Virus record (IMG/VR): IMGVR_UViG_3300009159_000131
Location: 1 to 40,214 of that record
Source of the DNA: a virus
Strand: one strand, 5' to 3'
DNA: 40,214 nt
The position numbers and the translations under genes are program-made. Every line of letters begins with the position of its first letter. Position 1 is the stretch's first letter. The notes beneath the pieces were generated by a model. It was not told the DNA's origin. It was given only the letters and a program-made list of their open reading frames with translations, and searched no databases. This document shows positions 5,208-40,135 of this stretch, one piece after another.

Positions 5208-5238
5208 ACCTAAGCCCGAAAGCTCGGTTTCCATTCTA
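5208..5238 (-). promoter_or_regulatory. promoter module A (TAGAAT, 12 bases, TTCGGGCTTAGGT)
   Basis: On the minus strand TAGAAT (5238-5233) is followed after exactly 12 bases by TTCGGGCTTAGGT (5220-5208), then a G/T-rich GGTAGGTAGGTT leader and the ERF gene. The same 31-bp layout recurs six times in the window, plus one degenerate copy. The hexamer resembles a bacterial -10 box. No -35 at 17 bases is recognisable here, because that stretch is filled by palindrome P1. Confidence 0.7.
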
Positions 5239-5266
5239 AAAAGAATCGACGGTCAAATCTTTTTTT
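5238..5266 (-). terminator. palindrome P1, probable terminator
   Basis: This is an imperfect copy of the repeated palindrome (one mismatch and one G-U pair in the arms), flanked by A and T runs. It lies about 35 bases after the stop of the RecE-like exonuclease gene. In RNA it makes a hairpin followed by a U tract, as in a Rho-independent terminator. It touches the -10-like box of module A, so it could also be an operator. Confidence 0.6.
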
Positions 5267-5301
5267 AGTCGTCCGCCAACGAAATCGTTGGGCTTACGCG
5301 A

Positions 5302-6147
5302 TCAGAACAAGTTGACTTCGTCAAATCCTGGCCGCTGCCAAACGTTCTCGTCCTTGGTTTCTGCAAAGTCCTTCCAGTTGGCAAACATGCCTTGGTGGGC
5401 CTCGTCGATTCGGCGTTCCGCAGCTTCCAACGTCTCTGGCTTCGGGCTCCAAATCTCAACCCTAAAAGGCTCTTTGGACTCCACTACAACGAACTCCACT
5501 TCGAGCCAATCGCCCGTCAACGCGTGCCATAGCCTGCGATAATAGGCCGCGCTGATGTCCCATCCGAGGTCGAACGGCTTGTACCGCATAGACTTCTCGC
5601 TCAGGTCGCCAGTGGTCTTGAGGTCTTTGATCCTAGTGTACACCCAATCTAGTCGCCCGCGAACGGGCCACGGATACTTTTGCAGCTCGTCGCACTCGTT
5701 GACAAAACAGACTTCCGCGTCCGCCGTGATGGTCAGCTCCTTTCGCGCGTCTTGCTCCTCGAACAAGCTCTTGGCCTTCGGATGGCCACGAACAGCGTCA
5801 AGCATGTTGTCCATCGTCACAACTTCGGAAGCCTTCACCAGCAACTGACCGCAGTTATCTTTTTTAAATTGCTCCCAAGCGCCTCCGGCCCTTGAGCCCG
5901 ACTTGCTCAAGATCTCTTGAGGGATAACAACGTAGGACCGCAAAATGGCGTCAAGCAACGCTTCTTCATGGACAACCGACCCGAACTCCATTTGCGCCGT
6001 CGCCTGCTTGCGTTGGCCCAAGTAGTGCGTTCGGAAGTACCCTCGGACGCTTGTGAGGTAGTCCTTGGTCTGAGAGGCTGACGTTTCAGTTTTGCGAGCG
6101 TGATAGGTGCTAGCCTCTTCAAAGTGTACCCTTCCGTTTGTCCACAT
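5302..6147 (-). CDS. RecE/exonuclease VIII-like PD-(D/E)XK nuclease
   Basis: A 281-residue 5'-3' exonuclease of the PD-(D/E)XK fold. F-G-S-V-V-H-E-E-A-L-L-D at 55-66 supplies the early histidine/acidic motif. G-R-L-D-W at 164-168 and I-K-D-L-K-T-T at 173-179 supply the metal-binding Asp and the catalytic Asp-x-Lys. A-A-Y-Y-R-R-L-W near 200-207 matches the late aromatic/Arg motif. Such enzymes resect double-stranded DNA for an annealing protein; the ERF gene is next downstream. The start ATG follows a GGAGGGG-type binding site that lies over the end of the preceding small gene. Confidence 0.85.
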   Translation of the reverse strand: MWTNGRVHFEEASTYHARKTETSASQTKDYLTSVRGYFRTHYLGQRKQATAQMEFGSVVHEEALLDAILRSYVVIPQEILSKSGSRAGGAWEQFKKDNCGQLLVKASEVVTMDNMLDAVRGHPKAKSLFEEQDARKELTITADAEVCFVNECDELQKYPWPVRGRLDWVYTRIKDLKTTGDLSEKSMRYKPFDLGWDISAAYYRRLWHALTGDWLEVEFVVVESKEPFRVEIWSPKPETLEAAERRIDEAHQGMFANWKDFAETKDENVWQRPGFDEVNLF

Positions 6148-6150
6148 CGA

Positions 6151-6333
6151 TTACCACCCCTCCTCGGGCTCACCGTCTAGCTTAGCCTTCAAATTGTCCA
6201 GCCTGAGCAGCAACGCCGCCGTGTCGTCTATGCCTGGAACGTCTGTCGGCGTTGAGCTTACGAATTGTTCCAACGCTTCCACAATGTCACATAGCTCTTG
6301 GAATGTCACATTGATACTAATCTGTTTGCTCAT
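6151..6333 (-). CDS. hypothetical small protein, 60 aa
   Basis: The open frame extends upstream, but ATG 6333 is the likely start because GGGGGAG lies eight bases before it and the preceding part reads like a shadow. The product is a short amphipathic protein (I-N-V-T-F-Q-E-L-C-D-I-V-E-A-L) with an acidic end. It resembles no family I know. It ends three bases before the exonuclease ATG, and its last codons hold the exonuclease's ribosome binding site. Confidence 0.6.
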   Translation of the reverse strand: MSKQISINVTFQELCDIVEALEQFVSSTPTDVPGIDDTAALLLRLDNLKAKLDGEPEEGW

Positions 6334-6391
6334 CGCGTTCTCCCCCATCGTGGCATAATCATGCCGTCGAAACCATCGCCACGAAAAAGCA

Positions 6392-6667
6392 TCAACTTGC
6401 AAATTTGACTCCTCCCACATTTCTGTACAGGTGGCTATTCTGCTTGAGCCAAAGTATCTCGGCGTTGATTGCATCTTGACGCCTCGTAAAACCGCTTAGA
6501 ACGGGTCCGCCGCTCGGTCCCATGTCTGCCTCCCATTCTGTTCCAACAGGCTCGACGTGAGACGCCCTGACGATCTTTGACGGACCTAGCGTGACAAGCT
6601 CGGCGAGGTCATCCGTCCAGATGAACCGGAGGCTTCCGTCTGGCAGTATCGTGATTGTATTTTCCAT
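6392..6667 (-). CDS. hypothetical protein, 91 aa
   Basis: A small alpha/beta protein opening with a beta-hairpin-like stretch (I-T-I-L-P-D-G-S-L-R-F-I-W). The sequence G-F-T-R-R-Q-D-A-I-N-A-E-I-L-W-L near residue 59 looks like an amphipathic helix. No family is recognised. Its start overlaps the end of the upstream 78-residue gene by 59 bases, an unusually long overlap in this window. Both frames look coding. Confidence 0.6.
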   Translation of the reverse strand: MENTITILPDGSLRFIWTDDLAELVTLGPSKIVRASHVEPVGTEWEADMGPSGGPVLSGFTRRQDAINAEILWLKQNSHLYRNVGGVKFAS

Positions 6668-6845
6668 CGACCGTATCCTTTATTCGAATTCGAACGCTTT
6701 GGGGGGCGTCAACCGCGATCCTGCCTTGCTTGCTCTCGGCACGCGAGAGGTACAGGTCAATCGTGATCGGCTTGCCTTGTGCGTCGAACACTTGGGAGAG
6801 TTCTATGCACCTGGTTCCCCTAGCTGTTAAATCTATTGCGTACAT
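6609..6845 (-). CDS. hypothetical protein, 78 aa
   Basis: A short beta-rich protein (I-D-L-T-A-R-G-T-R-C-I-E-L near the start, then V-R-I-R-I-K-D-T-V-D-G). No family is recognised. The ATG lies only one base after TTCGGGCTTAGGT of promoter module B, so the AGG inside the conserved box may double as a weak ribosome binding site. If module B is a promoter, the 5' leader is only about 20 bases. Confidence 0.6.
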   Translation of the reverse strand: MYAIDLTARGTRCIELSQVFDAQGKPITIDLYLSRAESKQGRIAVDAPQSVRIRIKDTVDGKYNHDTARRKPPVHLDG

Positions 6846-6846
6846 T

Positions 6847-6877
6847 ACCTAAGCCCGAATCATTGGGTGTTGTTCTA
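6847..6877 (-). promoter_or_regulatory. promoter module B (TAGAAC, 12 bases, TTCGGGCTTAGGT)
   Basis: TAGAAC at 6877-6872 and TTCGGGCTTAGGT at 6859-6847 on the minus strand have the same 12-base spacing as the other copies. The -10-like hexamer overlaps the stop codon of the preceding 312-residue gene. The box ends one base before the ATG of the next gene. Confidence 0.7.
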
Positions 6878-7813
6878 TTCCAGATTGAATTTTCTCTTTG
6901 GGGCCACGTTGACCACATCGGCTCTGGACTCCAAGACTTTCGCCCTAGGCTCCACTTTTTGCTTCTGCTTGCCAACCTGAACGCCTTGCACGTTAGGCTT
7001 TGCGGCCTTGATCGCTTCTATGAAGTCCATCTGCTTTTGCGTCATCGTAGACTCACATTGGTCACAAATACCAATCTGATGTGGTTTGAAAGTAACAAGG
7101 TTCAATTGCGAAGGTTTCTTTGCCTGCACTTGTTTCTTGATCGGCTTAGACTGAGGATGTCCCGGCGTTCCCGTTTTTAGGTAGTTCTCCCAAGCTGTTG
7201 GATATGTTATCCATTCGCACCTATTCATTGCTTCGTTGACGACCAATCCAGCCGGAAAGAATTTGTCGGTGTCGTTCTTTGAAAATGCGGGCCACAGGTC
7301 GGACTTGGTTGGGTCGCTTGGAACCACTATTCCCGTGAACTTTCTGAACTGGTCTTGGTAGTATTCAAACGAAGATGGTAGCCCAGGTATTCTCTTGCAA
7401 TCGTCCAGCGCCTTGAGGTACCGCGTGATGCTCTTGTGCGTCTTGAATCCCGCTGCTGTCGTCAATGGCTTTAGCTGCAATACGATCTCTACCAACGTCG
7501 CCTCTTTTTTCATCCTCTGATCGTACTTGCGGAAGTCCTCGCGGATAGTTTGAATTGTTACTCCGTCGGATGGCAACGGAATTCCAATGGAGCAATACAG
7601 CTCGTCAATGTACTGCGGTTGGCTACCAAGAACGATTGCCGCTTTGAGGTCGTCCATTAAATACTTGATCGCCTCGCGCACATCATGCGAAGCTGTCGGT
7701 TGGTTCTCATTCCATGTCACTTGGTCGCATGCGTACTCAGGACAGGACCATCTAGGCCCCCACTTGGTATTTTGCTTTTTGCATTCTGTCCCGTGTACCG
7801 CACAAGCGACCAT
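6875..7813 (-). CDS. hypothetical protein with N-terminal zinc-finger-like cysteines, 312 aa
   Basis: No family is recognised. The first 30 residues contain C-A-V-H-G-T-E-C and later C-P-E-Y-A-C, a possible Cys/His zinc site. A further C-D-Q-C occurs near residue 250. The middle is helical, with F-E-Y-Y-Q-D-Q-F-R-K-F and W-P-A-F-S-K. The C-terminal 60 residues are Lys/Gln/Pro rich and probably disordered. The gene follows the 139-residue gene after five bases. Nucleic-acid binding is plausible from zinc ligands and basic tail, but is inference. Confidence 0.65.
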   Translation of the reverse strand: MVACAVHGTECKKQNTKWGPRWSCPEYACDQVTWNENQPTASHDVREAIKYLMDDLKAAIVLGSQPQYIDELYCSIGIPLPSDGVTIQTIREDFRKYDQRMKKEATLVEIVLQLKPLTTAAGFKTHKSITRYLKALDDCKRIPGLPSSFEYYQDQFRKFTGIVVPSDPTKSDLWPAFSKNDTDKFFPAGLVVNEAMNRCEWITYPTAWENYLKTGTPGHPQSKPIKKQVQAKKPSQLNLVTFKPHQIGICDQCESTMTQKQMDFIEAIKAAKPNVQGVQVGKQKQKVEPRAKVLESRADVVNVAPKRKFNLE

Positions 7814-7818
7814 GATAT

Positions 7819-8238
7819 CTACGCAATTTCGTTTGCAACCGTTTGATTCAGAATCTTGTCGACGACTCCCTTGAGAAAATCGTACTTGCCCGTTAGCTCG
7901 TCGATCTGCTTTTGCTGGGCGCTCAATCGTTTGTCAACCGATGACTCTTCCAAGGCTGGCTTAAGAAACGTTTTGATGTCTCTCTCCGCTGCCTCGATAG
8001 CCATTTTCAGCGAGTAAGGAGTTACGCTGAATCCAAGCTTGTCGCCGACAAACGCGGCCAGTCCGACCCATGTATCATGCGTCTGCTCAGCCAACGTTTT
8101 GCAGAACGCGACTAGGGTGTGCGTCTGCTTGAAGCTCAACCGTGTTCTCGGCTCGTTGGCCTCAATGGTTGGAGGCTCAATGGTTGGAGGCTCAATTGTT
8201 ACGGCTGGGATTGGCTGCTCGTTCAACGGGTCGTACAT
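7819..8238 (-). CDS. hypothetical protein, 139 aa
   Basis: Residues 14-28 carry a duplicated I-E-P-P-T motif encoded by a tandem DNA repeat near 8165-8196. The middle part (F-K-Q-T-H-T-L-V-A-F-C, then W-V-G-L-A-A-F-V-G-D-K-L-G-F-S-V-T-P-Y-S-L) could be a helical DNA-binding-like domain, and residues 105-125 are likely coiled coil. No family is recognised. A GGAAAAG sequence six bases ahead supports ATG 8238. About 160 non-coding bases with two inverted repeats lie upstream. Confidence 0.65.
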   Translation of the reverse strand: MYDPLNEQPIPAVTIEPPTIEPPTIEANEPRTRLSFKQTHTLVAFCKTLAEQTHDTWVGLAAFVGDKLGFSVTPYSLKMAIEAAERDIKTFLKPALEESSVDKRLSAQQKQIDELTGKYDFLKGVVDKILNQTVANEIA

Positions 8239-8272
8239 AATTCTTTTCCGAAATTGTGATTGAAACTAAAAG

Positions 8273-8287
8273 GCCCATTACGTGGGC
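8273..8287 (-). terminator. weak hairpin with short T run
   Basis: GCCCA and TGGGC flank a five-base loop, and on the minus strand the stem is followed directly by CTTTTAG. This could be a weak intrinsic terminator between the DUF2997 gene and the 139-residue gene. The stem is only five pairs. Confidence 0.3.
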
Positions 8288-8356
8288 AAGTCGGCATTTC
8301 TCACGCGTCGTCGATGGAATATAGGTAACGCGCAGTTGATGCTTGCCAGCTAATTT

Positions 8357-8380
8357 CACGTGAGTTATGCCCCTCACGTG
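8357..8380. promoter_or_regulatory. inverted repeat CACGTGAG / CTCACGTG
   Basis: Perfect 8-base arms around an 8-base spacer lie in the 160-base gap between the DUF2997 gene and the 139-residue gene. There is no T run, so a protein-binding site or an RNA hairpin is more likely than a terminator. The arms contain a CACGTG palindrome of their own. Confidence 0.4.
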
Positions 8381-8399
8381 CATGAGCGCTCTACTGGCT

Positions 8400-8582
8400 T
8401 TACGCTTGCTTCCCAACCGCTGCGGTCTTTTTAAAGTCCGCTGTCACTTCGCTCTTGGTTACGTTGCCAAGAGCCTTTTCGATGGCCTCAGATACCTTCT
8501 TGCAGTGAGGGCCGGATACACCTTCGACACCGACCTTCACGTTACCGTCTTTGTCTACGCTAACGATTACTGTCTCTGCCAC
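8400..8582 (-). CDS. DUF2997-family small protein, 60 aa
   Basis: The sequence V-D-K-D-G-N-V-K-V-G-V-E-G-V-S-G-P-H-C at about 9-27 followed by a helix (K-K-V-S-E-A-I-E-K-A-L-G) matches the DUF2997 pattern: a two-strand hairpin, a G-x-x-C turn and a helix. The family often sits next to DUF1257 (Ycf35) genes, as it does here with one small gene between. The biochemical role is unknown. It begins two bases after the stop of the 78-residue gene. Confidence 0.75.
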   Translation of the reverse strand: MAETVIVSVDKDGNVKVGVEGVSGPHCKKVSEAIEKALGNVTKSEVTADFKKTAAVGKQA

Positions 8583-8584
8583 GA

Positions 8585-8821
8585 TTACTCGGCCTCCGAT
8601 GTTTTTAGGCGTGACGGATTACCAAGCGCCACCCGAACAGCGTCGTTGGCTACTGCTAGATTTTTGCCTAGCGTGTACATAATCGGCTCTCCCTCAAGGG
8701 CGTCCACCCAAACAACCAGACGGGCCACCAAAAGTTCAAACTTAGCGCGTTCGTGGCGTTCGCTTTGTGCCTTTAGCTCAACGGCTTGAAGGCGTTCGAT
8801 TTCGTTCTGAGTGTTGCTCAC
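8585..8821 (-). CDS. hypothetical helical protein, 78 aa
   Basis: A short protein with a coiled-coil-like N-terminus (E-I-E-R-L-Q-A-V-E-L-K-A-Q-S-E-R) and a second helical part. I recognise no family. It lies between the DUF1257 and DUF2997 genes with 13- and 2-base gaps, so it is co-transcribed and probably co-translated with them and may act with the pair. Confidence 0.6.
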   Translation of the reverse strand: MSNTQNEIERLQAVELKAQSERHERAKFELLVARLVVWVDALEGEPIMYTLGKNLAVANDAVRVALGNPSRLKTSEAE

Positions 8822-8834
8822 TTCTTTTCGTTTC

Positions 8835-9314
8835 CTATCTTGTACAAACCAATTTTATCTCGCCGTTTTTTCCCGACTGCTCTTTGACCGCGAAGCCTTG
8901 CTTTTTCGCGTTCTTCTTTGCAACTTCCAATGCGTACATCTGCTGCAACTTTCCAATGCCCTTTTTGGCCGTGTCCGTCTCGGCAGAAACGTGATTCATC
9001 AAGCCTTGGCCGCCTGCAAAGAAATCCCATAGGAGAGCGAATCCACCCTTGGGGTTCTCGACAACCCCAATCTCGTATGCCCGTCTGCCGGTGTCGTCCT
9101 TCACGCTCAGAGCGTGGAGACACTTGCCGTACTCCTTCGGGTCGATGCCGAGCCGTTTGTAGGCCGCATCGTCCTCGTCGTAGTCGTCCATCCATCGACC
9201 GTACCAACGGAAGTTCTTTTGGTCCTTCTTGAATTCTAGCCCGCAGCGCTCGGCTGCTTTGGCTAAACAATCCAGATCTTTGATCTGGACTTCGACTGTT
9301 GCTATGTGTGAAAT
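8835..9314 (-). CDS. DUF1257/Ycf35-like protein, apparent ATT start
   Basis: The 159-residue reading begins (M)SHIATVEVQIKDLDCL, the typical start of DUF1257 (Ycf35), continues through F-R-W-Y-G-R-W near 40-46 and W-D-F-F-A-G-G-Q-G near 103-111, and ends in a helical, lysine-rich tail. The family is known from plastids, cyanobacteria and various bacteria; its function is not settled. The codon at the expected start (9314-9312) is ATT, with AAGGAG seven bases before it. No ATG, GTG or TTG lies between the in-frame TAG 11 codons upstream and this site. The next ATG (9191) would remove 41 conserved residues. Promoter module C is just upstream. Confidence 0.82.
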   Translation of the reverse strand: MSHIATVEVQIKDLDCLAKAAERCGLEFKKDQKNFRWYGRWMDDYDEDDAAYKRLGIDPKEYGKCLHALSVKDDTGRRAYEIGVVENPKGGFALLWDFFAGGQGLMNHVSAETDTAKKGIGKLQQMYALEVAKKNAKKQGFAVKEQSGKNGEIKLVCTR

Positions 9315-9352
9315 TTTGTTGCTCCTTAAAGCTGGAAAACCCGTTCCCTACC

Positions 9353-9383
9353 ACCTAAGCCCGAAACATTGCTGGGCGTTCCC
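9353..9383 (-). promoter_or_regulatory. promoter module C (GGGAAC, 12 bases, TTCGGGCTTAGGT)
   Basis: The box at 9365-9353 is exact. The hexamer 12 bases before it is GGGAAC, keeping only the GAAC part of the other copies, so it is probably a weaker promoter. It stands between the 108-residue gene stop and the DUF1257 gene. Confidence 0.6.
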
Positions 9384-9384
9384 G

Positions 9385-9711
9385 CTATTTTTGCAAGTCT
9401 TTCAACTTAGCCTTGGCCGCTTCCCATCGGCGTGCCTTTAGATCGTCCTTGAAATAAATGTCGTAGTTCCATTCGCAAAATCTCTTTTGCACAGGAAGGC
9501 TTTCAACCCACTTAACAAAGTCATCGCTCACCATAAACATCGTCCCGCCTACGGGGAGGTCGCTTCTGTGAACCTGATCTATGGTAACGTCGTTAGCCTT
9601 GATCCATTCCATCGCTATGTCGTGACGAATTGATTCAAGAATTGTTAGCTCCTGAACTTTCAACGCAGATATCTGCGTGCGGACTTGTTCTAGTTCTGCT
9701 TCGCGGTTCAT
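9385..9711 (-). CDS. hypothetical protein, 108 aa, paralogue of the gene at 10945-11352
   Basis: An N-terminal coiled coil (about 1-30) is followed by a domain with W-I-K-A-N-D-V-T-I-D and F-V-K-W-V-E-S-L then F-C-E-W-N-Y-D-I-Y. The same pattern (W-I-R-A-N-N-V-T-L-D, F-K-D-W-M, Y-F-E-W-N-K-R-I-Y) occurs in the 135-residue protein at 10945-11352, so the two are paralogues. No database family comes to mind. ATG 9711 follows a strong GGAGG and is four bases from the upstream stop. Confidence 0.75.
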   Translation of the reverse strand: MNREAELEQVRTQISALKVQELTILESIRHDIAMEWIKANDVTIDQVHRSDLPVGGTMFMVSDDFVKWVESLPVQKRFCEWNYDIYFKDDLKARRWEAAKAKLKDLQK

Positions 9712-9714
9712 GTT

Positions 9715-10626
9715 CTAATCCTCCAAGGTGAATTTGCGAATCGATGCGGTCGTTGTGAACTTTGCCAGCGACTCGCCCACTTCCGTCAGCTTGGCCTTAA
9801 AGTCTGCCTTGTTCGTGCCTTGCTTGAGACTCTTGACTGTGACGTCCCCGGCGAGCGACTTTGCCTTTTCAACCAGCTCGGCAAGGTCATTGTTGTCGCT
9901 GATCGACATTTCCGAGAACCGCTTGGCAAAGTCAACAAGGTGGTCAATCTTTGACTGCTTGATGATGTGCTTCTTGCCGTCCTCCTCAGACTGGTCCGTA
10001 AGCTTTTCAAGCAGCTCCGATACCATCGTGGCGAACTCCTCTTGGAGAGCCGTCTCCGCTGCGATAGCCGCTTGCTCGAACTGGGCTACGATCTTCTTCC
10101 GCTCGGCCTCAAATAGCTCTGGCGCTATCGTTTTGAGCCTTGAATCCGGTTCGATTGCTGGGTAGCTGATCGTGATGCCAAACGCGTTTCGGATGTCGAA
10201 ATCGTAGTCCGACTCAACAAACAAATCGACTAGCCGAGTTTTGGCGTCTGCAACGACATCGGGCCATCGGTCGTACACCTGATCGCATGCCTCGATCGCT
10301 TCGATCTGGCATTCCGAAATTGCCGAGTTCATCCACTCGATCTTGTCGGTTCGAATCAGGCGAACGCCGTCTTCGTACTTGACCGTCGCGGCCCGCCATA
10401 TTGCTTTGGCCTTGGTCGCTGCTTTGAATAGCGGCTTCACGAATTCCAGCTTGCGGTTCAAGAACTCGCGGGAGCCCTTGACCGAACCGGTTTCCGCGCT
10501 GAACGCCTCGGCCATTTTCTTGCGTTGGGGCTCGGTCATCTTGCGGCTGCACATCACTTGCCGAATTTCGAGCTTGCAACCGCTGGTCAAGTTCTTGAGC
10601 TTCGCGCCTAAATCTTGTTCTGCCAT
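9715..10626 (-). CDS. hypothetical helical protein, possibly DUF3150-like, 303 aa
   Basis: A mostly helical protein without catalytic motifs. The layout (long N-terminal helices, a central W-P-D-V-V-A-D-A-K-T-R-L-V-D-L-F stretch, an I-S-Y-P-A-I segment, then long charged helices) recalls DUF3150-type phage and integrative-element proteins that accompany AAA ATPases. This is a resemblance, not a firm match. ATG 10626 begins with M-A-E-Q-D. It is preceded by the degenerate module D and followed after three bases by the paralogue gene. Confidence 0.6.
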   Translation of the reverse strand: MAEQDLGAKLKNLTSGCKLEIRQVMCSRKMTEPQRKKMAEAFSAETGSVKGSREFLNRKLEFVKPLFKAATKAKAIWRAATVKYEDGVRLIRTDKIEWMNSAISECQIEAIEACDQVYDRWPDVVADAKTRLVDLFVESDYDFDIRNAFGITISYPAIEPDSRLKTIAPELFEAERKKIVAQFEQAAIAAETALQEEFATMVSELLEKLTDQSEEDGKKHIIKQSKIDHLVDFAKRFSEMSISDNNDLAELVEKAKSLAGDVTVKSLKQGTNKADFKAKLTEVGESLAKFTTTASIRKFTLED

Positions 10627-10666
10627 CGTCCTGTTTCCCTGTTAAAGTGTTTGGAACCTACCTACC

Positions 10667-10697
10667 ACCTACGGGTAAACAGTTGATTCATGGTTAA
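10667..10697 (-). promoter_or_regulatory. degenerate promoter module D
   Basis: At the place expected for a module the minus strand reads TTTACCCGTAGGT, matching 8 of 13 positions of the box, with TTAACC 12 bases ahead. It is continued by GGTAGGTAGGTT, the same leader as module A. It precedes the 303-residue gene. Confidence 0.4.
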
Positions 10698-10948: not shown

Positions 10949-11352
10949 ATTTCCACGTATCCGGGCACGTCTTCAATTCGAGCTACTCGACGGCTTGGTA
11001 ATCGATTGGATTCGTAAAATTCCAATCGATTGTAGATGCGCTTGTTCCATTCGAAGTAACGAGTTCTGATGTCGTTTTTCTGCATCCAGTCCTTAAACTG
11101 ATTTACCACTGTGAAATAGGGCATGTCATTTGGAACCTTGCGAGCAATTGAATCTGCAAGGCTTCCCGAAATCGTAATGTCGTCAAGAGTTACGTTATTT
11201 GCACGAATCCAACGTTTCGATTGGCATTTGTCCAAAAGCTGATTCAACTCGATTTCACGCTTGTTAAGTTTTGTAATCTGCGATTCGATTTCGCTGAGTT
11301 CTTTTGCGAATTCATGTTCGCGAGCAAATAGTTCATGGTCTGTCACAATCAA
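10945..11352 (-). CDS. hypothetical protein, 135 aa, paralogue of the gene at 9385-9711
   Basis: It has an N-terminal coiled coil (about 8-45), then the domain shared with the 108-residue protein: W-I-R-A-N-N-V-T-L-D, then F-K-D-W-M-Q-K, then Y-F-E-W-N-K-R-I-Y. It carries about 25 extra C-terminal residues. Function is unknown. It overlaps the truncated helicase by four bases (ATGA) at its start. Confidence 0.75.
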   Translation of the reverse strand: MIVTDHELFAREHEFAKELSEIESQITKLNKREIELNQLLDKCQSKRWIRANNVTLDDITISGSLADSIARKVPNDMPYFTVVNQFKDWMQKNDIRTRYFEWNKRIYNRLEFYESNRLPSRRVARIEDVPGYVEI

Positions 11353-12068
11353 ACCTCTGCTAACTGGTAAGCCGACGACTGAAATAGGATCTGCTCACGC
11401 AAAAACGTTTTGCGTTGTGCAATCAGCTTCTCCGCTTCCTCTTGCTGCTTGGTTGCTTGCTTTTGTCCTTTGTCGTCCAGCTGCCTGAAGAACCTCTTGA
11501 GCATCTCACTGTTGTTCAGTTCTCCGATTGCTTCCGAGGTTGTTCCCAGCTCGACATAATCATTCGGGCTTGGAGTCGCAGTTGCCATCAGCCGATATTG
11601 GAGCTTCGACGCAAACCGAGTGATCTGCTTTTGTGTTGTGCCTCCAAGCGATTTCAGGATGCTTGACTCGTCGCAAATGATCCCGCTGAAATCTAGTGGA
11701 TTGAACTTTTGCAGTTGCTCATAGTTTGTCACCCAAATGCACTTAGACTTGTCCCACTCGCCATGCCTTGATCGCTGAGCATCTATGCCAAACTTCTCCG
11801 CCTCGCGTATCATCTGCGTTCCAACCGCGATTGGAGTCAACAACAGTACTGGCTTGTTTGTTTTGCGAACTACTTGTTCACCCCATGAGAGTTCACAAAT
11901 TGATTTGCCTAGCCCACAATCTGCAAACAGTGCTGACCGACCGTGACGGCAAGCAGTTTCCACAATGTGATTTTGAAAAGGAAACAACTTGTCCGTTAGC
12001 TTTTTTGGCTTGAAGCCACTGTCACGCGTAAGTTGTGACTTTTCTTCGATAAATTTTGCGTAGTTCAT
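11349..12068 (-). CDS. SF2 (SNF2-like) helicase, RecA1 domain only
   Basis: The 239 residues hold a Q-motif-like L-F-P-F-Q at 28-32, motif I D-C-G-L-G-K-S at 50-56, motif II D-E-S-S at 133-136 and motif III T-A-T-P-S-P-N-D at 163-170. These match phage helicases of about 450-650 residues. The second RecA domain with motifs IV-VI is missing; the protein stops after R-F-F-R-Q and a Gln/Lys-rich helix. It cannot be a full translocase unless another protein supplies the second lobe. No frame downstream continues it. AGGAG eight bases before ATG 12068 and module E upstream indicate it is expressed, so it may be a kept fragment rather than a dead gene. Confidence 0.8.
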   Translation of the reverse strand: MNYAKFIEEKSQLTRDSGFKPKKLTDKLFPFQNHIVETACRHGRSALFADCGLGKSICELSWGEQVVRKTNKPVLLLTPIAVGTQMIREAEKFGIDAQRSRHGEWDKSKCIWVTNYEQLQKFNPLDFSGIICDESSILKSLGGTTQKQITRFASKLQYRLMATATPSPNDYVELGTTSEAIGELNNSEMLKRFFRQLDDKGQKQATKQQEEAEKLIAQRKTFLREQILFQSSAYQLAEV

Positions 12069-12084
12069 AAATTGGTCTCCTGAT

Positions 12085-12115
12085 ACCTAAGCCCGAAAAC
12101 TTGCCAGACGTTCTT
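12085..12115 (-). promoter_or_regulatory. promoter module E (AAGAAC, 12 bases, TTCGGGCTTAGGT)
   Basis: The box at 12097-12085 is exact; AAGAAC at 12115-12110 is at the fixed 12-base distance. It overlaps the last codon of the AAA+ gene and precedes the truncated helicase by 17 bases. Confidence 0.68.
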
Positions 12116-13610
12116 ACGCCTTTTGAAACCTTCGGCCCGTTGCCGCCTTGCTGGCCTCTGGCTTGGTGCGTTGGTAAGTTCCTGGGTAGCTTGCCGATAG
12201 GAAACGTCCCTCGGCTCCTGCTCGCAACTTTTCGATTGAGTCCGCAGCATGCTTCGATACTGGGACGATGTACTCGGCGGCTTCGCTTGGCTCGATCTCA
12301 AGATTGTGGGCAAACTCGCAACACGTTTCGATCTCTGCCCCTGTCCACTCGTTCGCGTGGAGGGCCTTGGTTTGCTCGATCGTCAATCTAAACTTTTCTC
12401 GATAGATTTTCCAAATCTCGTTTCGTTCCTCCAAGTCGGGCAAGTCAAAGAACCATGTTCCGAGCTTGAATCGACGCTTGAGTTCGGGAGGCAAGACGGA
12501 CAAAGAATTGCAGGTCGCAATCCAAAGTGTCTTGCCACCGCTTACCGCGTTGATGACCTTCAGGGCTTCTCGTATCTGTTGCTCACTTTGACCAACTAGC
12601 GAACCCTTGGCTGCTCCGAGGTCAAGCTGAATTGTCGGAATGCTTTGATCGCTTCCGCACGCTTTGGCTGCTGCCGACTTCGAAGCGCCGGGAGGTCCGA
12701 CCAGAATACAGCCCGTCGCCCGATTGTCCTGCATCCATGAAAGCAGAGTTCCTACTTGGTCCTGGCTTGTTCCGCTCATGTCGGTACCCGCAGCACCAAG
12801 GGCCTTCTCGATCTCGTCGATAAACACAATCGCGTTAATGTTGCTCTTGCCTGCGATAACCTGTGCGATGAACTTCTTGAACTGAGGAATCCCGCCGATC
12901 TTGTCCATGCTGTTGGACCCCGAAACAACTTGGAGAGCCGGAGTCTCGTTGATCTTTTTTTCCTTCGACTCCCAAAGGCCACCCATTGAAAGACCGTGCT
13001 TGTCGATTGCAAGGCTTGCAAGGTTCTCCGCTGCGAACGCTGTGACGCCAAGAGCCGCACATCCTGCCGCGTCTCGCACGTCTTGGCTTGCTTCGATCTC
13101 AGCCGCATCGCAAACGCTTCCGATGACTTGCGATAGTTGCTTGGAGTCTGGCAGTGGCTCGATGATGGCGATTACGTCTTGCTGCAATTCGACTGGCAAC
13201 CGACCGCCCGAGCCCATCAAGACCAACATTTTTTGGCCGCTCTTGAAAATGTCGCGGAGGTTCCAGATCGCTTGAACGACCGTGAATTGATCCAAGAATT
13301 GGTGTGCGTTGTGGATCAGAATTACCATCGGGAGCGACTGATCGACTTTTGCCAAATCGACCAACAGTTCCAAGGGGTTGCCAACGTACTCGTCTTGCCC
13401 CTTTAGATTACCGGTGGAAGTCTTGGGGGTGAAAACGTACCATCCTCGAACGCAGTCCCAAGCAACGATGTTCACTTGCTCTTGGAATTTTGCCGTGGCA
13501 AACTCCGCAACAATAGCTTGATTTGTCGCCCCTGGATCGCTCGTCTCGAACGACACCAACGGAACCCCAACCCGATATGCTTTGACCAGCTTTGCGTAGA
13601 CCGACAACAT
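12114..13610 (-). CDS. Ycf46-like AAA+ ATPase with permuted core (Walker B before Walker A)
   Basis: The N-terminal 200 residues resemble the degenerate ATPase domain of Ycf46 proteins (V-I-L-I-H-N-A-H-Q-F-L-D at 96-107; L-P-V-E-L-Q-Q-D-V near 138-146). The C-terminal half is an AAA+ domain in unusual order: Walker B I-V-F-I-D-E-I-E-K-A at 261-270, then L-L-S-W-M-Q-D-N, then Walker A G-P-P-G-A-S-K-S at 305-312, then S-L-V-G-Q-S-E at 337-343, sensor 1 W-I-A-T-C-N at 363-368, and E-L-K-R-R-F at 376-381 as possible arginine fingers. In standard AAA+ proteins Walker B follows Walker A. All catalytic residues are present, so it should be active. The role is unknown; such ATPases remodel or load other proteins. 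Module F precedes it. Confidence 0.88.
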   Translation of the reverse strand: MLSVYAKLVKAYRVGVPLVSFETSDPGATNQAIVAEFATAKFQEQVNIVAWDCVRGWYVFTPKTSTGNLKGQDEYVGNPLELLVDLAKVDQSLPMVILIHNAHQFLDQFTVVQAIWNLRDIFKSGQKMLVLMGSGGRLPVELQQDVIAIIEPLPDSKQLSQVIGSVCDAAEIEASQDVRDAAGCAALGVTAFAAENLASLAIDKHGLSMGGLWESKEKKINETPALQVVSGSNSMDKIGGIPQFKKFIAQVIAGKSNINAIVFIDEIEKALGAAGTDMSGTSQDQVGTLLSWMQDNRATGCILVGPPGASKSAAAKACGSDQSIPTIQLDLGAAKGSLVGQSEQQIREALKVINAVSGGKTLWIATCNSLSVLPPELKRRFKLGTWFFDLPDLEERNEIWKIYREKFRLTIEQTKALHANEWTGAEIETCCEFAHNLEIEPSEAAEYIVPVSKHAADSIEKLRAGAEGRFLSASYPGTYQRTKPEASKAATGRRFQKA

Positions 13611-13648
13611 TCTTTTGTCGCTGTTCGTTTGAGTTTGATCTGTCTCAA

Positions 13649-13679
13649 ACCTAAGCCCGAACGGCTGTTTTTTGTTATA
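13649..13679 (-). promoter_or_regulatory. promoter module F (TATAAC, 12 bases, TTCGGGCTTAGGT)
   Basis: TATAAC at 13679-13674 and the exact box at 13661-13649 have the 12-base spacing. This is the copy closest to a classical TATAAT. It is in an AT-rich intergenic stretch of about 185 bases between the SNase-like gene and the AAA+ gene. Confidence 0.72.
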
Positions 13680-13745
13680 CGCGATTCCAAAAAATCCAGA
13701 AAATTGGCTAACGTGTACGTATATATACTACACGTCGGGACATCC

Positions 13746-13772: not shown

Positions 13773-13796
13773 AGGACCCGACCACCAACGAAAACA

Positions 13797-26600: not shown

Positions 26601-27323
26601 TTAGACCCGTCTGTGGGGTACTCCGTAAAGTGGTTGATGCCATGCGAATTCGTAGGACCAAGATATCTCGTACTCGGTATCAATGTTACCAAGAACCCTT
26701 GGAGTGCTGATTGTAATCTCTGGACGCTTGAGCACTGCATAGGGCCAAATCGGTGGAGGAATGAATGGCCTAGCGAGCAATCCTGTTGCACTTCCCGATT
26801 GTCGGTATCGGTATGCCTTGTTCTGGAAAAAGATTTGACGCTCTGGAAGATTTACCGCGCCGCCAACATAGCCCTCTTCTCGACCGCCTTCGATCTCGGT
26901 CAACTCTTCGTCGAACTTCAAAAGGTCACTACCCGCGCCCGCAAGCCGCTCGGCCTCATAGGTTACACGATAGGACATACCATTGCCGTAGATGTCACCT
27001 TCTGCGTTCGGGAACCCTGAATCAACAATGTACGGTCCAACAAGGCAACGACTGGCATACAAGGCAAGTTTTGTATCTACGTTGGCAAAGTCCTCCATGA
27101 ACGCGATATCGACACCCTCTTGGCTAAAATTTGCTTCAAGTGTGTTGAGTGCTGCGGTCATCAAGCGCTCAGATGACTTGTTCTCAAGGATCAGCCGTCC
27201 AGTGATATCCCAACGCTCGATCATCTTGGATACCTTGCGAGTCACATCGTAGACAGGCTTGTAACTGATCTGAGCCACTGCCTCGTTCAACGGTCGAACT
27301 GCTCCACCTATTCTTAGCCTCAT
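26601..27323 (-). CDS. minor tail protein (distal tail-like), 240 aa
   Basis: It is the first gene after the tape measure gene, where siphoviruses usually encode the distal tail protein. The chain is alpha/beta with I-E-R-W-D-I-T-G-R-L-I-L-E near 35-47 and a C-terminal W-S-Y-E-F-A-W-H-Q-P-L-Y-G-V. There is no decisive motif, so the name comes from gene order. It overlaps the tape measure stop as ATGA. Confidence 0.55.
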   Translation of the reverse strand: MRLRIGGAVRPLNEAVAQISYKPVYDVTRKVSKMIERWDITGRLILENKSSERLMTAALNTLEANFSQEGVDIAFMEDFANVDTKLALYASRCLVGPYIVDSGFPNAEGDIYGNGMSYRVTYEAERLAGAGSDLLKFDEELTEIEGGREEGYVGGAVNLPERQIFFQNKAYRYRQSGSATGLLARPFIPPPIWPYAVLKRPEITISTPRVLGNIDTEYEISWSYEFAWHQPLYGVPHRRV

Positions 27324-31246: not shown

Positions 31247-31309
31247 TTTAAAAAGCCCTTTGTTGCAAAACGTATTTCGTCGTTATTCTATCGCCGCGCT
31301 GCGCACCAA

Positions 31310-31726: not shown

Positions 31727-31734
31727 AATTTGCC

Positions 31735-33013: not shown

Positions 33014-33015
33014 GT

Positions 33016-33834: not shown

Positions 33835-33835
33835 G

Positions 33836-35454: not shown

Positions 35455-35496
35455 AGTTTTGCCTTGCGTGTATATCGATCCCAAACAAAAACAAAA

Positions 35497-35898
35497 TCAC
35501 CCACCGCCAGCGTTGATCGTGAAAGCTGTAACTGTTACTTGCTGGCCCGATGCGATCGAAACGTTGTCTAAGGTCATGTCTCCACCGCCGCCCGTTGCCG
35601 TAACTGTGCCTTGAATATGACACGTCGCGCCTTGGTTGATCCTAAAATGTGCAGCCGTTCCGGTCGCATCGGCAGAGGGGTCTTGCCATGTACCGCTCAG
35701 CGCTTTAGCACCGCTGGAGGCCGCTGCCATCCAATCCGACGGCAAAACCAAAGTTGCCAACACAGTCCCGCTCGCAGCCGCCGCGCAGTTGGCTGGCACC
35801 GAACCGCTCCGGATTTCGAGAGTCGGCGCAGTGCTAACCGTCGTTTCGATCGCGTCAAGAGACGCATTGCGAGCTGCGGTAGAAAATTGAAAAGTCAT
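35497..35898 (-). CDS. beta-rich structural protein, 133 aa
   Basis: It starts M-T-F-Q-F-S-T-A-A-R-N-A and is rich in Ala, Thr and Gly, with a C-terminal beta region (V-T-V-T-A-F-T-I-N). ATG 35898 has AAGGA nine bases ahead; the frame is open farther upstream. The N-terminal segment A-R-N-A-S-L-D-A-I-E-T recalls small phage head proteins of unknown role. No family is named. Confidence 0.6.
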   Translation of the reverse strand: MTFQFSTAARNASLDAIETTVSTAPTLEIRSGSVPANCAAAASGTVLATLVLPSDWMAAASSGAKALSGTWQDPSADATGTAAHFRINQGATCHIQGTVTATGGGGDMTLDNVSIASGQQVTVTAFTINAGGG

Positions 35899-35923
35899 TG
35901 CAAAATATCCTTTAAGTTTCTGT

Positions 35924-36196
35924 TTATCGCGAGTAACCGTTATCACCCTCTGTCACTACTTCCCACGCACCGTCTTCGTTATCAATCGCCGCTTGGACAG
36001 CACTTTCATCGAGAATTAGCTTGTTAATCTGGCCAAGCTCTTCGTACAAAGACTTGCGCCATTGCACGTGATCGATCGCCGTTCCTCCGTCTGAGGTCAT
36101 CGCGTTGGGCTTGCCACCCACGCTCGTTTTCGTCATGGCATTTAGATCGGCAAGAATAGTTGCCCGTCTTGCTTTTAGATCATCTATCAATGCCAT
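35924..36196 (-). CDS. small helical head-region protein, 90 aa
   Basis: It starts M-A-L-I-D-D-L-K-A-R-R-A-T-I-L-A-D-L-N-A-M. Two helices with an H-V-Q-W-R-K-S-L-Y-E-E-L middle and an acidic tail. ATG 36196 with GGAGG five bases ahead is chosen over an upstream in-frame TTG that lies on the binding site. Small helical proteins of this size after the capsid gene are often head-tail connector parts. Confidence 0.6.
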   Translation of the reverse strand: MALIDDLKARRATILADLNAMTKTSVGGKPNAMTSDGGTAIDHVQWRKSLYEELGQINKLILDESAVQAAIDNEDGAWEVVTEGDNGYSR

Positions 36197-36213
36197 GACT
36201 GCCTCCAATCAAT

Positions 36214-36726
36214 CTACTGCGGGTTGAGAACCTTTTCGTCTGCCACGTCGAGCAACGTTTGCTCGTCGTCCGTAAGTGTGCCGCCGTTCTCCGACTTCTT
36301 TCGAAGCTTCGAAACAAACTGCGATTGTTTGATTCGTGCGTCTCGTCTTGGGTCAACGCACTTTGCTGAAACTGGGTGCAAGCTTGGGTCAATCTGTAGC
36401 CCTGGACGCTCTGGATGCGATCTTGTGAGTATGAACCACCGGATCGCCTCGGACTCGTCGCACGCCTCTACAATCTCGTTTGGAAGCCCTGGGTGCGGCT
36501 TTTTGAGACCTACTTCGAACTTGTAGCCCTCGCCCTTCGTGATATCCGTTGCACCGCGAACCGTTCGATTTGCTAACGAGTCTTGATTAGCCTGAGCAAC
36601 CTTTTGAGCCTCGGCAAGTTCTTTTTCTCGCTGCTCGATTATCTTGTTTGCGGCCTCCAATTTTGCTTGGAGGTCGGAAACTGAATCAGCTTTTGCAACT
36701 TCGGAATTCTTTGGATCAGAGGCCAT
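36214..36726 (-). CDS. hypothetical protein after capsid gene, 170 aa
   Basis: An N-terminal coiled coil (L-Q-A-K-L-E-A-A-N-K-I-I-E-Q-R-E-K-E-L near 19-37) is followed by a domain with F-E-V-G-L-K-K-P-H-P-G-L-P and I-R-W-F-I-L-T-R, then a charged C-terminus. No family is recognised. The gene is separated from the capsid gene by two hairpins, one with a T7 run, so it should be made in lower amount than capsid protein. Confidence 0.65.
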   Translation of the reverse strand: MASDPKNSEVAKADSVSDLQAKLEAANKIIEQREKELAEAQKVAQANQDSLANRTVRGATDITKGEGYKFEVGLKKPHPGLPNEIVEACDESEAIRWFILTRSHPERPGLQIDPSLHPVSAKCVDPRRDARIKQSQFVSKLRKKSENGGTLTDDEQTLLDVADEKVLNPQ

Positions 36727-36737
36727 TTGACACCTAC

Positions 36738-36768
36738 AAAAAAAGGAACGTGTTGATAACTCACGTCC
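36738..36768 (-). terminator. intrinsic terminator after the capsid gene
   Basis: GGGACGTG and CACGTTCC pair on the minus strand (one mismatch) around a 9-base loop and are followed by TTTTTTT. It lies 40 bases past the capsid stop. Confidence 0.7.
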
Positions 36769-36792
36769 CTAGTGTAAGATTTTCAATCCGTT

Positions 36793-36816
36793 TGCACTAG
36801 CCGATGGCTAGGTGCA
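36793..36816 (-). other. hairpin at the capsid stop codon
   Basis: TGCAC-C-TAGCC and GGCTAGTGCA form ten pairs with one bulged base around a 3-base loop, and the capsid stop codon TAG is inside the stem. Without a T run it is more likely an RNA 3'-end stabiliser working with the terminator that follows. Confidence 0.5.
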
Positions 36817-37977
36817 CTTGAGCATTCGTCGTCGATCCTTGACCGCTGGCGCTCCTCGTTCGCTGCTCTTGAACCGAACAACAACATCGCGGGTGAACCC
36901 TACTTCGTTGTTGTCGGGAGCCTGAACAGTTTGCAAAGGCCAGTTTTGCATATAAGCAAACGCGGACTTTGGATCGCCTGCGAACCATGTCGTATCCGAG
37001 CTTGTTCGTTGGCGAACGTACTGGCCGGAAACAACGCTGTAAGGCGTCTTAACTAGGTTTCCGTTGTTGTACGTTTGCTGTACAGCCGTCTGTGTTGCCG
37101 TTCGAACCATCGAGGCGGTTTGAATCCGGCCAGCAGTGATTTCAAGAGCCTTCGGAACCAATACCACTTTCAGGGTCAGCGCGATTGGCTCACCAGTGTT
37201 TGGATCAGTCATGACGTTAAACTTCTGCTGTGCAGTGTCAATCGAAGTCCAATCCGTAAGTGTGTTGGTCACACTGTTGTCGGACTGGTAGGTCGCTTCT
37301 GCTGCTCCACCGTTGCGTCGGTAGATAGTCGTCACGCCCGTCACACAGTCGAGAATTCTCTTCTCTTTGGAGATTCGAATTGCATCGCCTGTTTGCCCGG
37401 CACGTTGCATTAACAATCCAGTGCGGTCGAAGTAAATAATTTCCTTCGTCACGTCCAAGATCAAACCGCGCTTGATCGTTTCAGGAGTGTCAACCCATTC
37501 TTCGGAGAACGTCGCGTTGGGGTACGGAGCGGCCTCGTTGACGATTTCGACATCATCACCAATACGGCCAATGCCTGGAAGCTTCTCGCCGTTGAAAGAT
37601 GTTTGTACAGTCTCAACGAGTTGATCGCCAACAAACTCAGGCGACTCGTATGCAAGCAACGTTCCGGTGTACGCAATCTGACCGATAATGTTTGCGAAGT
37701 TCGAAGTATCAACCGCGTTGGCCGATTCTTGAACATGGAACCCACCCGATTCTCTAGGGTCGAGAAACCGAACCGCCTCGCGTCCATCTTCAACGAACTG
37801 CTCAAACAGTTCTTTGACCGACCATCGTTCTTGGATGCCTTCGCCTTCTTCGCGTAGGCTACCGATAAAGTTTTCTCGGAAGTCCGACTGTGCAGCTTTA
37901 CCGCCTTTATTCGCCAACTCGAATTCCCTGCGGAGCTTTTGATGGCGAATGGTTTTCGTACTTGTGGTTCGTAGCAT
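36808..37977 (-). CDS. major capsid protein, 389 aa
   Basis: The length, the position after the protease/scaffold gene and the fold-like segments identify an HK97-type shell protein: a charged helical N-terminal arm (about 1-70), then D-V-E-I-V-N-E-A-A-P-Y-P-N near 145, L-I-L-D-V-T-K-E-I-I-Y-F-D-R-T near 170, and a long C-terminal alpha/beta part with P-W-P-L-type beta strands near its end. ATG 37977 has GGAG five bases ahead and is preferred to the TTG 19 codons upstream, whose stretch is a triple CAACAACCTTTTT repeat. The flanking terminator and leader fit high expression. Confidence 0.8.
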   Translation of the reverse strand: MLRTTSTKTIRHQKLRREFELANKGGKAAQSDFRENFIGSLREEGEGIQERWSVKELFEQFVEDGREAVRFLDPRESGGFHVQESANAVDTSNFANIIGQIAYTGTLLAYESPEFVGDQLVETVQTSFNGEKLPGIGRIGDDVEIVNEAAPYPNATFSEEWVDTPETIKRGLILDVTKEIIYFDRTGLLMQRAGQTGDAIRISKEKRILDCVTGVTTIYRRNGGAAEATYQSDNSVTNTLTDWTSIDTAQQKFNVMTDPNTGEPIALTLKVVLVPKALEITAGRIQTASMVRTATQTAVQQTYNNGNLVKTPYSVVSGQYVRQRTSSDTTWFAGDPKSAFAYMQNWPLQTVQAPDNNEVGFTRDVVVRFKSSERGAPAVKDRRRMLKCT

Positions 37978-37986
37978 CTCAGCTCC

Positions 37987-38022
37987 AAGGTTGTTGAAAA
38001 AGGTTGTTGAAAAAGGTTGTTG
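37987..38022 (-). repeat. three tandem 13-base units in the capsid leader
   Basis: On the minus strand CAACAACCTT is repeated three times at a 13-base period (units at 37987, 38000 and 38013) joined by TTT. The array ends directly at the capsid gene's ribosome binding site. Its C/A/T-only make-up would keep the leader free of secondary structure. Confidence 0.7.
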
Positions 38023-38034
38023 AGTTAGGGCCAA

Positions 38035-38763
38035 CTAGAGTTTTTGATAGCAGGCGACCGCGTCAACGTTTAGCAACTGATTGACAGCCGTTCCAGCTTT
38101 GACACCAACAGCGAAGTTCATTTCGGTCGGCGACGCGTATGTGCGGTCCATCATCTTGTAGACGGTAGAACCGTTGATCTTGAAAATGACGTCCATCAAC
38201 GTCGCCGTCTTAGGAATGCAGTCTACTTCCAGCAATGTGAAAACACCTGCTGCGGTTGCCCCAACTTGAGCAGACTTGGTTAGCGAGTTTGTTGCGGTCA
38301 ACTCTGCAAGCGTTTGAGTCGTTCCGTCCGAATAGGCGACGTGCCAATTTAACGAACCGTCTCGCATGTAGAAACCAGCGCCGGAAAAGTTCGTTTTAGG
38401 ACCTGCTCCATCATCTACAATCGCGTTGGCTGCAACTGCGTTCATTACTCCAACCCACGCGTTAGCCGCATTGGTTGCAGCCTGGGCAAGTTGTACTCGT
38501 GCTCGAAGGTGCAATGGCTTGCCAGGCGCGAACAAGAACAACTCGTTGGTCGTAAGCAAGTAGCATTCGTCATTGTCAACCGCCGTACCGTCGCCAGATG
38601 TCAGCACAATCACGCCGCCAGCTGCATCCGACATTGTTGCCGTTCCGGCGTCTGCCGATGTCGTCGTGAACATCGTCGTGTTCTTACTTAAAAAGTGATC
38701 GACGAATCCGGCGTATAGGCTGAAATCGTGAACGGATTGTGGAAGGTTTAGGCCCTTGGACAT
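38035..38763 (-). CDS. beta-rich capsid-associated protein, 242 aa
   Basis: It lies between protease and capsid genes, where lambda-like phages encode a decoration protein. It has many short strands (G-V-I-V-L-T-S-G-D-G-T, L-H-L-R-A-R-V-Q-L, F-T-L-L-E-V-D-C-I, V-I-F-K-I-N-G-S-T-V-Y-K), the mark of a jelly-roll or lectin-like fold. GAGGA eight bases before the ATG is a strong binding site. No family is named. A capsid decoration role is inferred from place and fold. Confidence 0.62.
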   Translation of the reverse strand: MSKGLNLPQSVHDFSLYAGFVDHFLSKNTTMFTTTSADAGTATMSDAAGGVIVLTSGDGTAVDNDECYLLTTNELFLFAPGKPLHLRARVQLAQAATNAANAWVGVMNAVAANAIVDDGAGPKTNFSGAGFYMRDGSLNWHVAYSDGTTQTLAELTATNSLTKSAQVGATAAGVFTLLEVDCIPKTATLMDVIFKINGSTVYKMMDRTYASPTEMNFAVGVKAGTAVNQLLNVDAVACYQKL

Positions 38764-38845
38764 GATCTGTTATCCTCTAAAGTTTTGGCGAGTAACCACC
38801 GATTAAAAGTTAAAAAACGTGTATTTTCGTTGACGGCCTGATTCG

Positions 38846-38871
38846 AAAAGAATAGACCGTCGATTCTTTTT
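38846..38871 (-). terminator. palindrome P5, probable terminator
   Basis: A copy with one arm mismatch, starting at the TAA stop codon of the protease gene. The T run at its end suits termination between the protease and the decoration/capsid genes. Confidence 0.6.
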
Positions 38872-40051
38872 AGCCGATTGCTCGCATGAATTCTTCGCGA
38901 GTCTTGGGCTTGTATTCGCCCGTCTCGCCGTACAACTCATCGACGCCTTCGGACAAAATTGATTTGGAAACCGCTGGCTTGTCGGACGCCTTGCGAACCT
39001 GTGCCCAGCTCTCAACCAGTGCGGGACGGTCAGCCTCGGGCAATGTTGCCAGAACCTTTAAGCGGAATGGATCGACGGCGCGGTTCGAAGACTCAAGCAA
39101 CTTGCGACATGCTGCTTCGGTTTTGATCGATTGCAACTCGGCTCTTGTGGCTTCGAGTTCTTCTCGCAAGTTCCCAGTCTCACCCCCTGAACCTTCCATG
39201 CTGCCCTCTGACGATGCTTTGTCAGGTGGCGGCGTCTTTGCCTTGCCCTCGCCTGTGATCGCTGCCATAGCGGTCTCAGAGGCTTGCATAATCGTTTTAA
39301 GCTTGGCTAGCTTGCCTGGAATGTCGAGTTCCGGATCGTCAAGGACGGAAACCAACGCAGCCTTAAACGCGTGTTCAACTTGTTCTTCTGGCGTGCTTTC
39401 GATCGGCTCGCCTGCATCGTCCATTTGATCCATTGACGATTCAACGGGCATCTCGGCCATCATCGGATCGCCGGAAATCATGTCCTCAAGGATCTTGGCA
39501 AACTTGCTCTTATTGGCCGCGATCTCTTTGATCGTTTTCTTCATGGGAAAGTCCTTGGATTCAAAAAGACCGGAATTGGTTGCAGGGTCGTTGACGATAT
39601 CGACCGAGTTGACTTTATGGATTTTGGTGACCTCTTTGAGCCCACCTGGGATTGACACTTCATCGCCGCTTGCGTCATGGCTCATGCCAAACGTTTCAGG
39701 CATTCGCTCCGCTGCTTCGATAAGAACGGGAGTCTGCGAGTGATTGACCAAGTAATGGATATCAGCCCTCAGACCCCCGTCTTCGGAGACGCGGACATTC
39801 TTGAGCACTCCCCACTTATCTCGGATACTGCGAGGGCCCGTAGTGCCGTTCTTTGCGGGAACAACGTGATCCAAATAGATTCGTGAACCCTCGTAGACCG
39901 GGACAGCTTCTTGGAGCATCTTGGTTGGGTACGTGCGACCGTTGCGGCTCTTGTTGCCGATAACCTTGACGCCACGGATAACCCCCGCCGCCTTGTCGAT
40001 CGACTCGTAGCCGCTCCCGATAACAGATTCCCGCCACTTGGTTGTAGTCAT
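38870..40051 (-). CDS. prohead protease fused to scaffold, 393 aa
   Basis: The N-terminal 170 residues match phage prohead proteases of the gp21 type: V-I-G-N-K-S-R-N-G-R-T-Y-P, then Y-L-D-H, D-K-W-G-V-L-K-N-V-R-V, F-G-M-S-H-D-A-S-G with likely active-site residues, and V-N-S-V-D-I-V-N-D-P-A-T-N. The C-terminal 200 residues are acidic and helical with coiled-coil heptads (L-R-E-E-L-E-A-T-R-A-E-L-Q-S), the usual scaffold part. The enzyme cuts scaffold and capsid arms during head maturation. ATG 40051 has AGGG only two bases ahead; an upstream TTG at 40072 (seven more codons) is the alternative start. Confidence 0.85.
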   Translation of the reverse strand: MTTTKWRESVIGSGYESIDKAAGVIRGVKVIGNKSRNGRTYPTKMLQEAVPVYEGSRIYLDHVVPAKNGTTGPRSIRDKWGVLKNVRVSEDGGLRADIHYLVNHSQTPVLIEAAERMPETFGMSHDASGDEVSIPGGLKEVTKIHKVNSVDIVNDPATNSGLFESKDFPMKKTIKEIAANKSKFAKILEDMISGDPMMAEMPVESSMDQMDDAGEPIESTPEEQVEHAFKAALVSVLDDPELDIPGKLAKLKTIMQASETAMAAITGEGKAKTPPPDKASSEGSMEGSGGETGNLREELEATRAELQSIKTEAACRKLLESSNRAVDPFRLKVLATLPEADRPALVESWAQVRKASDKPAVSKSILSEGVDELYGETGEYKPKTREEFMRAIG

Positions 40052-40104
40052 GTCCCTAAATTTACGGGCCAACTGCGCACCAAAATATCGATGCGAAAAA
40101 ATGC

Positions 40105-40135
40105 TAGAATATTTTTTGGCCGTTCGGGCTTAGGT
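40105..40135 (+). promoter_or_regulatory. promoter module G, rightward (TAGAAT, 12 bases, TTCGGGCTTAGGT)
   Basis: TAGAAT at 40105-40110 and the exact box at 40123-40135 have the 12-base spacing. It is the only copy reading rightward, away from the late operon. It is followed by a hairpin and a terminator rather than a gene. Confidence 0.72.

Follow-up and report, generated by a model that had tools for sequence, protein, structure and literature searches.

The 40,214-base stretch of DNA analysed here (the window), a fragment of an uncultivated phage, raises the question of what reads an asymmetric 13-base box, TTCGGGCTTAGGT, of which it holds six exact copies, five leftward and one rightward, each with a hexamer exactly 12 bases ahead of it. 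The model that we find most reasonable takes these modules as promoters of a phage-encoded sigma factor of the ECF type that drive replication and recombination genes, a reading to which, judging from the sequences, we give a probability of about 0.85. The first-pass annotation of the window had all six positions and strands right (Table 1), and the hexamers lie where it placed them, with identical spacing in 6/6 copies. All hexamers end in AAY, and the AA at -15/-14 relative to the box is invariant in the six copies; when six sites were picked at random 20,000 times, a dinucleotide shared by all six somewhere between -60 and -5 arose at a frequency of 0.0001. The copies stand before genes and on the gene strand, the leftward ones all ahead of early or replication genes, and the late region of the window holds none, as had also been claimed. 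A sharp gap sets the exact copies off from background, since a mismatch search of the window found none with one or two mismatches and the 13 other matches with up to three mismatches all have exactly three, against 8.7 expected by chance. The 12-mers of the box are the most repeated 12-mers of the window.

Table 1. Copies of the module in the window and the predicted transcript of the rightward copy; promoter parts, starts and driven genes are predictions.
Feature	Position	Strand	Putative -35 hexamer	Predicted +1	Associated gene or remark
Box	5208..5220	-	TAGAAT 5233-5238	about 5203	putative promoter of Erf-like / ParB-like / helicase operon
Box	6847..6859	-	TAGAAC 6872-6877		gene 6609-6845 starts at box position 15
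Box	9353..9365	-	GGGAAC 9378-9383		would drive gene 8835-9314, probable ATT start
Eroded copy	10667..10679	-			before gene 9715-10626; leader shared with 5208; full modules at orthologs in relatives
Box	12085..12097	-	AAGAAC 12110-12115		would drive helicase-like gene 11349-12068
Box	13649..13661	-	TATAAC 13674-13679		would drive AAA ATPase gene 12114-13610
Box	40123..40135	+	TAGAAT 40105-40110	about 40140	
Predicted transcript of rightward promoter	40138..40214	+			5' hairpin, then strong hairpin followed by UUUU

Two entries of the table need qualification. The rightward copy was correctly given as to position and strand, but it points off the contig end; its promoter would, to judge from the sequence that follows, yield either a small RNA or the attenuated leader of genes that run rightward past the contig end, the RNA of 40138-40214 folding at -36.6 kcal/mol (z -4.5) with its first hairpin directly at the predicted start and the second, strong one terminator-like. 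The degenerate copy claimed at 10667 stands only in part: the downstream leader GTAGGTGGTAGGTAGGTTC is common to it and 5208, and the orthologous genes carry the module in relatives, but most of the box is lost, the hexamer is shifted out of register by one base and nothing except the leader is shared. Where measured, the box begins 15, 30, 50, 52 and 52 bases from the start codon, and several of the genes have a separate ribosome site. The apparent ATT start of gene 8835-9314 (minus strand; AAGGAG-N7-ATT TCA CAC ATA GCA ACA) agrees with the start of its ortholog in the related contig G001 (GTG AGT CAT ATT GCG ACG).

Relatives of the window were found through its replication genes. A sister contig matches the window exactly from 10670 to 40214; both contigs of this phage stop at that last base, though the portal region of the relatives should follow. 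The AAA ATPase as query led to two contigs of 59.7-60.0 kb, G001 and G002, at 54% identity, which are syntenic with the window at protein identities of about 30-60%, and an alignment of the helicase brought in 19 further relatives, giving 21 related contigs with a helicase 56-61% identical. The Erf-like protein and the head protease as single queries gave no relative, or the sister contig alone, and a helicase search of GTDB genomes gave no relative. The ATPase matches MAGs of Planctomycetaceae, Armatimonadetes and Acidobacteria at about 41-49%, a distance that does not allow a host to be named; among cultured phages there was no capsid match, the ATPase reached at most 34% and the sigma factor described below had only two weak matches.

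The motif search of relatives that the annotation had proposed fared differently for letters and for geometry. Viral contigs scanned with AAY-N12-TTCGGGCTTAGGT gave only the sister contig and apparent chance matches whose surroundings did not match, and TTCGGGCTTAGGT is absent from G001 and G002; yet in the well-covered relatives the corresponding genes follow a module that keeps the geometry and differs in its letters, and this supports the annotation's reading of the module as a promoter. In G001 and G002 another box, GGTGGCGTTA, precedes the counterparts of the five genes behind 13649, 12085, 10667, 9353 and 6847: the box at G001 18805, for example, stands before the ortholog of the helicase-like gene 11349-12068, and the box at 26805 before that of gene 6609-6845, whose in-frame GTG lies at box position 16. 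At -15/-14, where the window has AA, TT is invariant in all ten listed sites of G001. Most relatives with sufficient sequence share the spelling GSTTT-N13-GGTGGCGTTR, G005, G006, G020 and G021 have a GGYGGCATTG variant, and G018 has TTGAGAC-N14-CTCGGCTTAGTAGG, with a spacing from -35 to box about one base longer. In nine relatives GGTGGCGTTR occurs 63-66 times, always on the gene strand (0 copies opposite). The 33 pooled non-redundant A-type sites have RSTTT at -18..-14 ahead of the box and TGG behind it at 17-19; of the 51 A-type sites that lie outside gene bodies, 40 have T-rich cores (background 12.7%), and about 15/66 A-type boxes lie inside predicted gene bodies. Every close relative examined has the module upstream of its ATPase ortholog, and the box types follow the helicase tree, in which the window forms a long separate branch. 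Among the short contigs, no box was found in G009 and a single possible copy in G013.

Other features of these genomes deserve mention on their own account. G001 and G002 each hold 23 exact copies of a perfect palindrome, TGGAAACGTTTCCA, with essentially no near copies; it is scattered (for example at G001 23347, 25871 and 53076), late genes included, often overlaps a predicted start site of the putative sigma promoters, and is stoperator-like or parS-like. It is absent from the window, and in a sister clade (G005 and G021) GGCAACGTTGCC replaces it. The window has a palindrome around AAAAGAATCGACGGTCGATTCTTTT at 5239, 13748, 19928 and 38859, four intergenic copies between same-strand genes that are terminator-like or operator-like. 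The large terminase of G001 (40102-42576; L062:102-2576) has an apparent intein-like insert, judged by eye.

The comparison across relatives bears directly on which part of the module does what. The annotation read the hexamer as a -10 element, saw no -35, and expected transcripts to start about 7 bases after the hexamer, an assignment of parts that is probably wrong: the relatives have GSTTT, which is not a -10, at the same offset, the hexamer behaves as a -35 element of the ECF type (GAAY), and the -10 element would lie within the box. We took as +1 the G of the conserved TGG of the relatives, box position 18, a start that was inferred and not mapped. This puts the hexamer of the window in the -35 region and its 13-base box at -17 to -5, with the upstream element of the relatives at -35..-31 and their box at -17..-8. 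The promoter of the ECF factor sigma-H of Mycobacterium tuberculosis has GGAAYA at -34..-29, GTT at -11..-9 and an optimum spacer of 17 bp (PMC6411747). Although this promoter was not used in choosing +1, GAAY falls at exactly -33..-30 in 5/6 copies of the window (AAY in 6/6), and the GTT of the relatives falls at exactly -11..-9, where the window has CTT. The window thus holds an upstream element of the GGAAY type expected at about -34 to -30, which in the relatives has drifted to GSTTT and TTGAGAC, and, with +1 placed by inference, a -10 core behind a rigid spacer of about 17 bp. Start codons at box position 15 (the ATG of gene 6609-6845) or 16 (the GTG of its G001 ortholog) are as expected if transcription starts there, and would leave these mRNAs leaderless or nearly so; that of gene 6609-6845 is, on its sequence, probably leaderless.

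A phage-encoded factor had been anticipated as an activator or antitermination factor; the idea of such a factor stands, and it is probably a sigma factor instead. In the relatives a sigma gene lies in the module-driven operon, downstream of the main helicase. In G001 it occupies 37320-37811 and encodes a protein of 149 residues, or slightly longer, that matches Pfam Sigma70_r4 at 6.5e-12 and Sigma70_r2 weakly (0.006). Twelve versions from the family, of 149-166 aa, all match the ECF model TIGR02937, the first member well above the cut-off, and the protein has regions 2 and 4 and no region 3, as do ECF sigma factors of about 150-180 aa. The best fold matches of its predicted structure are sigma-H and sigma-L (pLDDT 80; pTM 0.42, so that domain placement is uncertain). 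The gene is present in 18/22 records, always 1.07-2.48 kb after the helicase, which is 18/18 of those long enough; the four records without it, the window included, extend only 0, 2, 382 and 1737 bases beyond the helicase. The window, at 40.2 kb, shows no sigma gene and ends 1737 bases past the helicase, the operon behind box 5208 runs toward the place where the relatives encode theirs, and the window phage presumably encodes one there as well; a scan for a contig extending the window leftward toward this place found nothing. Such a sigma factor is missing from twenty phages whose ATPase is less closely related (41-50%), save for one partial match at 1e-4, and 19 of these, those whose upstream sequence was read, have no module ahead of the ATPase. 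PF00940, for a polymerase of the T7 type, was absent from nine records in a search whose control also gave no match.

In our model host RNA polymerase, equipped with the phage sigma factor, would recognise each module as a two-part promoter. Region 4 of the sigma factor would bind the hexamer (TAGAAY and variants) as -35 element, region 2 would bind the box as an extended -10 element with the strand-opening region, and transcription would begin some 15-18 bases past the box's first base. The sigma factor would first be made from an initial promoter of host type and would then amplify its own operon, a positive autoregulation that probably follows from the promoters also driving the sigma gene, and switch on the AAA ATPase, the helicases, the exonuclease and the Erf-like annealing protein. 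As the late region holds no box, late genes would use something else. An ECF -10 element does not usually require as many as thirteen invariant bases, so part of the box may serve another protein or act once transcribed, and its upstream half may have room for a second reader. Against the model stand also the CTT in place of GTT in the -10 core of the window, the sigma gene unseen in the window, the A-type boxes (about 15/66) inside predicted gene bodies and the longer spacing in G018.

It is very unlikely that the hexamer is instead a -10 element for host sigma-70, with the box as a downstream element that is bound or transcribed, such as an activator or antitermination site. TAGAAT and TATAAC do resemble -10 elements, and the unusual invariance of the box fits a bound or transcribed element; GGGAAC and AAGAAC, however, are poor -10s, and the orthologous sites of the relatives have GCTTTC, GTTTTT or GTTTA at this offset, none of them a -10. 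Hexamer and box change together across relatives, which a host -10 would not explain, and whereas a single RNA element would persist across lineages, the box does not. We hold it just as improbable that the phage exploits an ECF sigma factor of its host, even though ECF promoters in general have such letters and geometry and the window itself shows no sigma gene, given that the gene stands at one place in all 18 relatives that are long enough and that box type follows the phage tree.

That the module is no promoter at all, being an operator, a stoperator or another protein-binding repeat serving partition, replication or recombination, seems scarcely credible. An asymmetric 13-mer that is oriented with transcription and lies between genes would suit such a role; against this, it has a fixed second element at -35 distance, stands only at promoter positions and in few copies, no repressor was found, and the separate genome-wide palindrome of the relatives fits the role better. 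The sigma reading accommodates a phage-specific motif that stands on the coding strand before one temporal class of genes, as the leftward copies of the window and the 0 minus-strand copies of the relatives show. Overall, the interpretation first offered for the module is partly supported, with its assignment of parts probably wrong, and the correction is of a tempting misreading, in which the -35 element of an ECF promoter is taken for a -10.

The wider scenario, to which we would give even odds, is that an uncultivated phage family, possibly infecting Planctomycetes, inherited one ECF sigma factor with its promoters and that sigma factor and promoters drifted until orthologous genes had at least three or four mutually different promoter specificities, with the box of the window becoming fixed, perhaps through a second protein. 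If true, this would be a natural series of sigma-promoter pairs, showing a phage-borne sigma factor and its promoters drifting together while staying at the same genes. The series would allow the contacts between sigma residues and promoter bases to be tested, and its pairs could serve as independent switches. The model also yields, from sequence alone, a transcription scheme for phages none of which is in culture.

Comparison with known systems places the module as follows. The operators and stoperators of mycobacteriophage L5 occur in more than 20 copies, at promoters and in short intergenic spaces genome-wide, and bind a monomeric repressor (PMC9283540). The window shares with them an asymmetric 13-mer oriented with transcription, a likeness that had been drawn before, but its six copies are all bipartite, stand at promoter positions and avoid the late region, so the module lacks defining features of a stoperator of this type. 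Nor does the suggested likeness to the start-associated sequences of cluster K mycobacteriophages hold beyond an asymmetric 13-mer ahead of genes in one orientation, as these sit immediately at the start codon (PMC3203893) and the box starts 15-52 bases away, several genes having a ribosome site of their own. With ECF promoters such as those of M. tuberculosis sigma-H (PMC6411747) the module shares GAAY at -33..-30, the 17-base spacing and TT at -10/-9, the relatives having GTT at -11..-9; unlike them it belongs to a phage-borne system, is conserved over 13 bases in its -10 region, and has a -35 element that in relatives drifted to GSTTT or TTGAGAC. The closest precedent is that of phages 7-11 and phiEco32, whose working mode is alike. 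Sigma factor SaPh711_gp47 reads the late promoters of 7-11 as GTAAtg-(16)-aCTA, with 16-base spacing, and the distant sigma factor phi32_gp36 reads another motif at the middle and late promoters of phiEco32, at similar genome positions (PMC8948821). Unlike these phages, the family described here has the module before replication and recombination genes instead of structural genes, an ECF-type -35 element in the window, several spellings within one family and no cultured member. The relatives nevertheless have the defining features of the 7-11/phiEco32 type, while in the window a sigma gene is unseen and would lie beyond the contig end: phage-specific promoters are few, host core polymerase would work with a phage sigma factor, the promoters are bipartite as in 7-11, and they keep corresponding positions although sigma factors and promoter letters differ.
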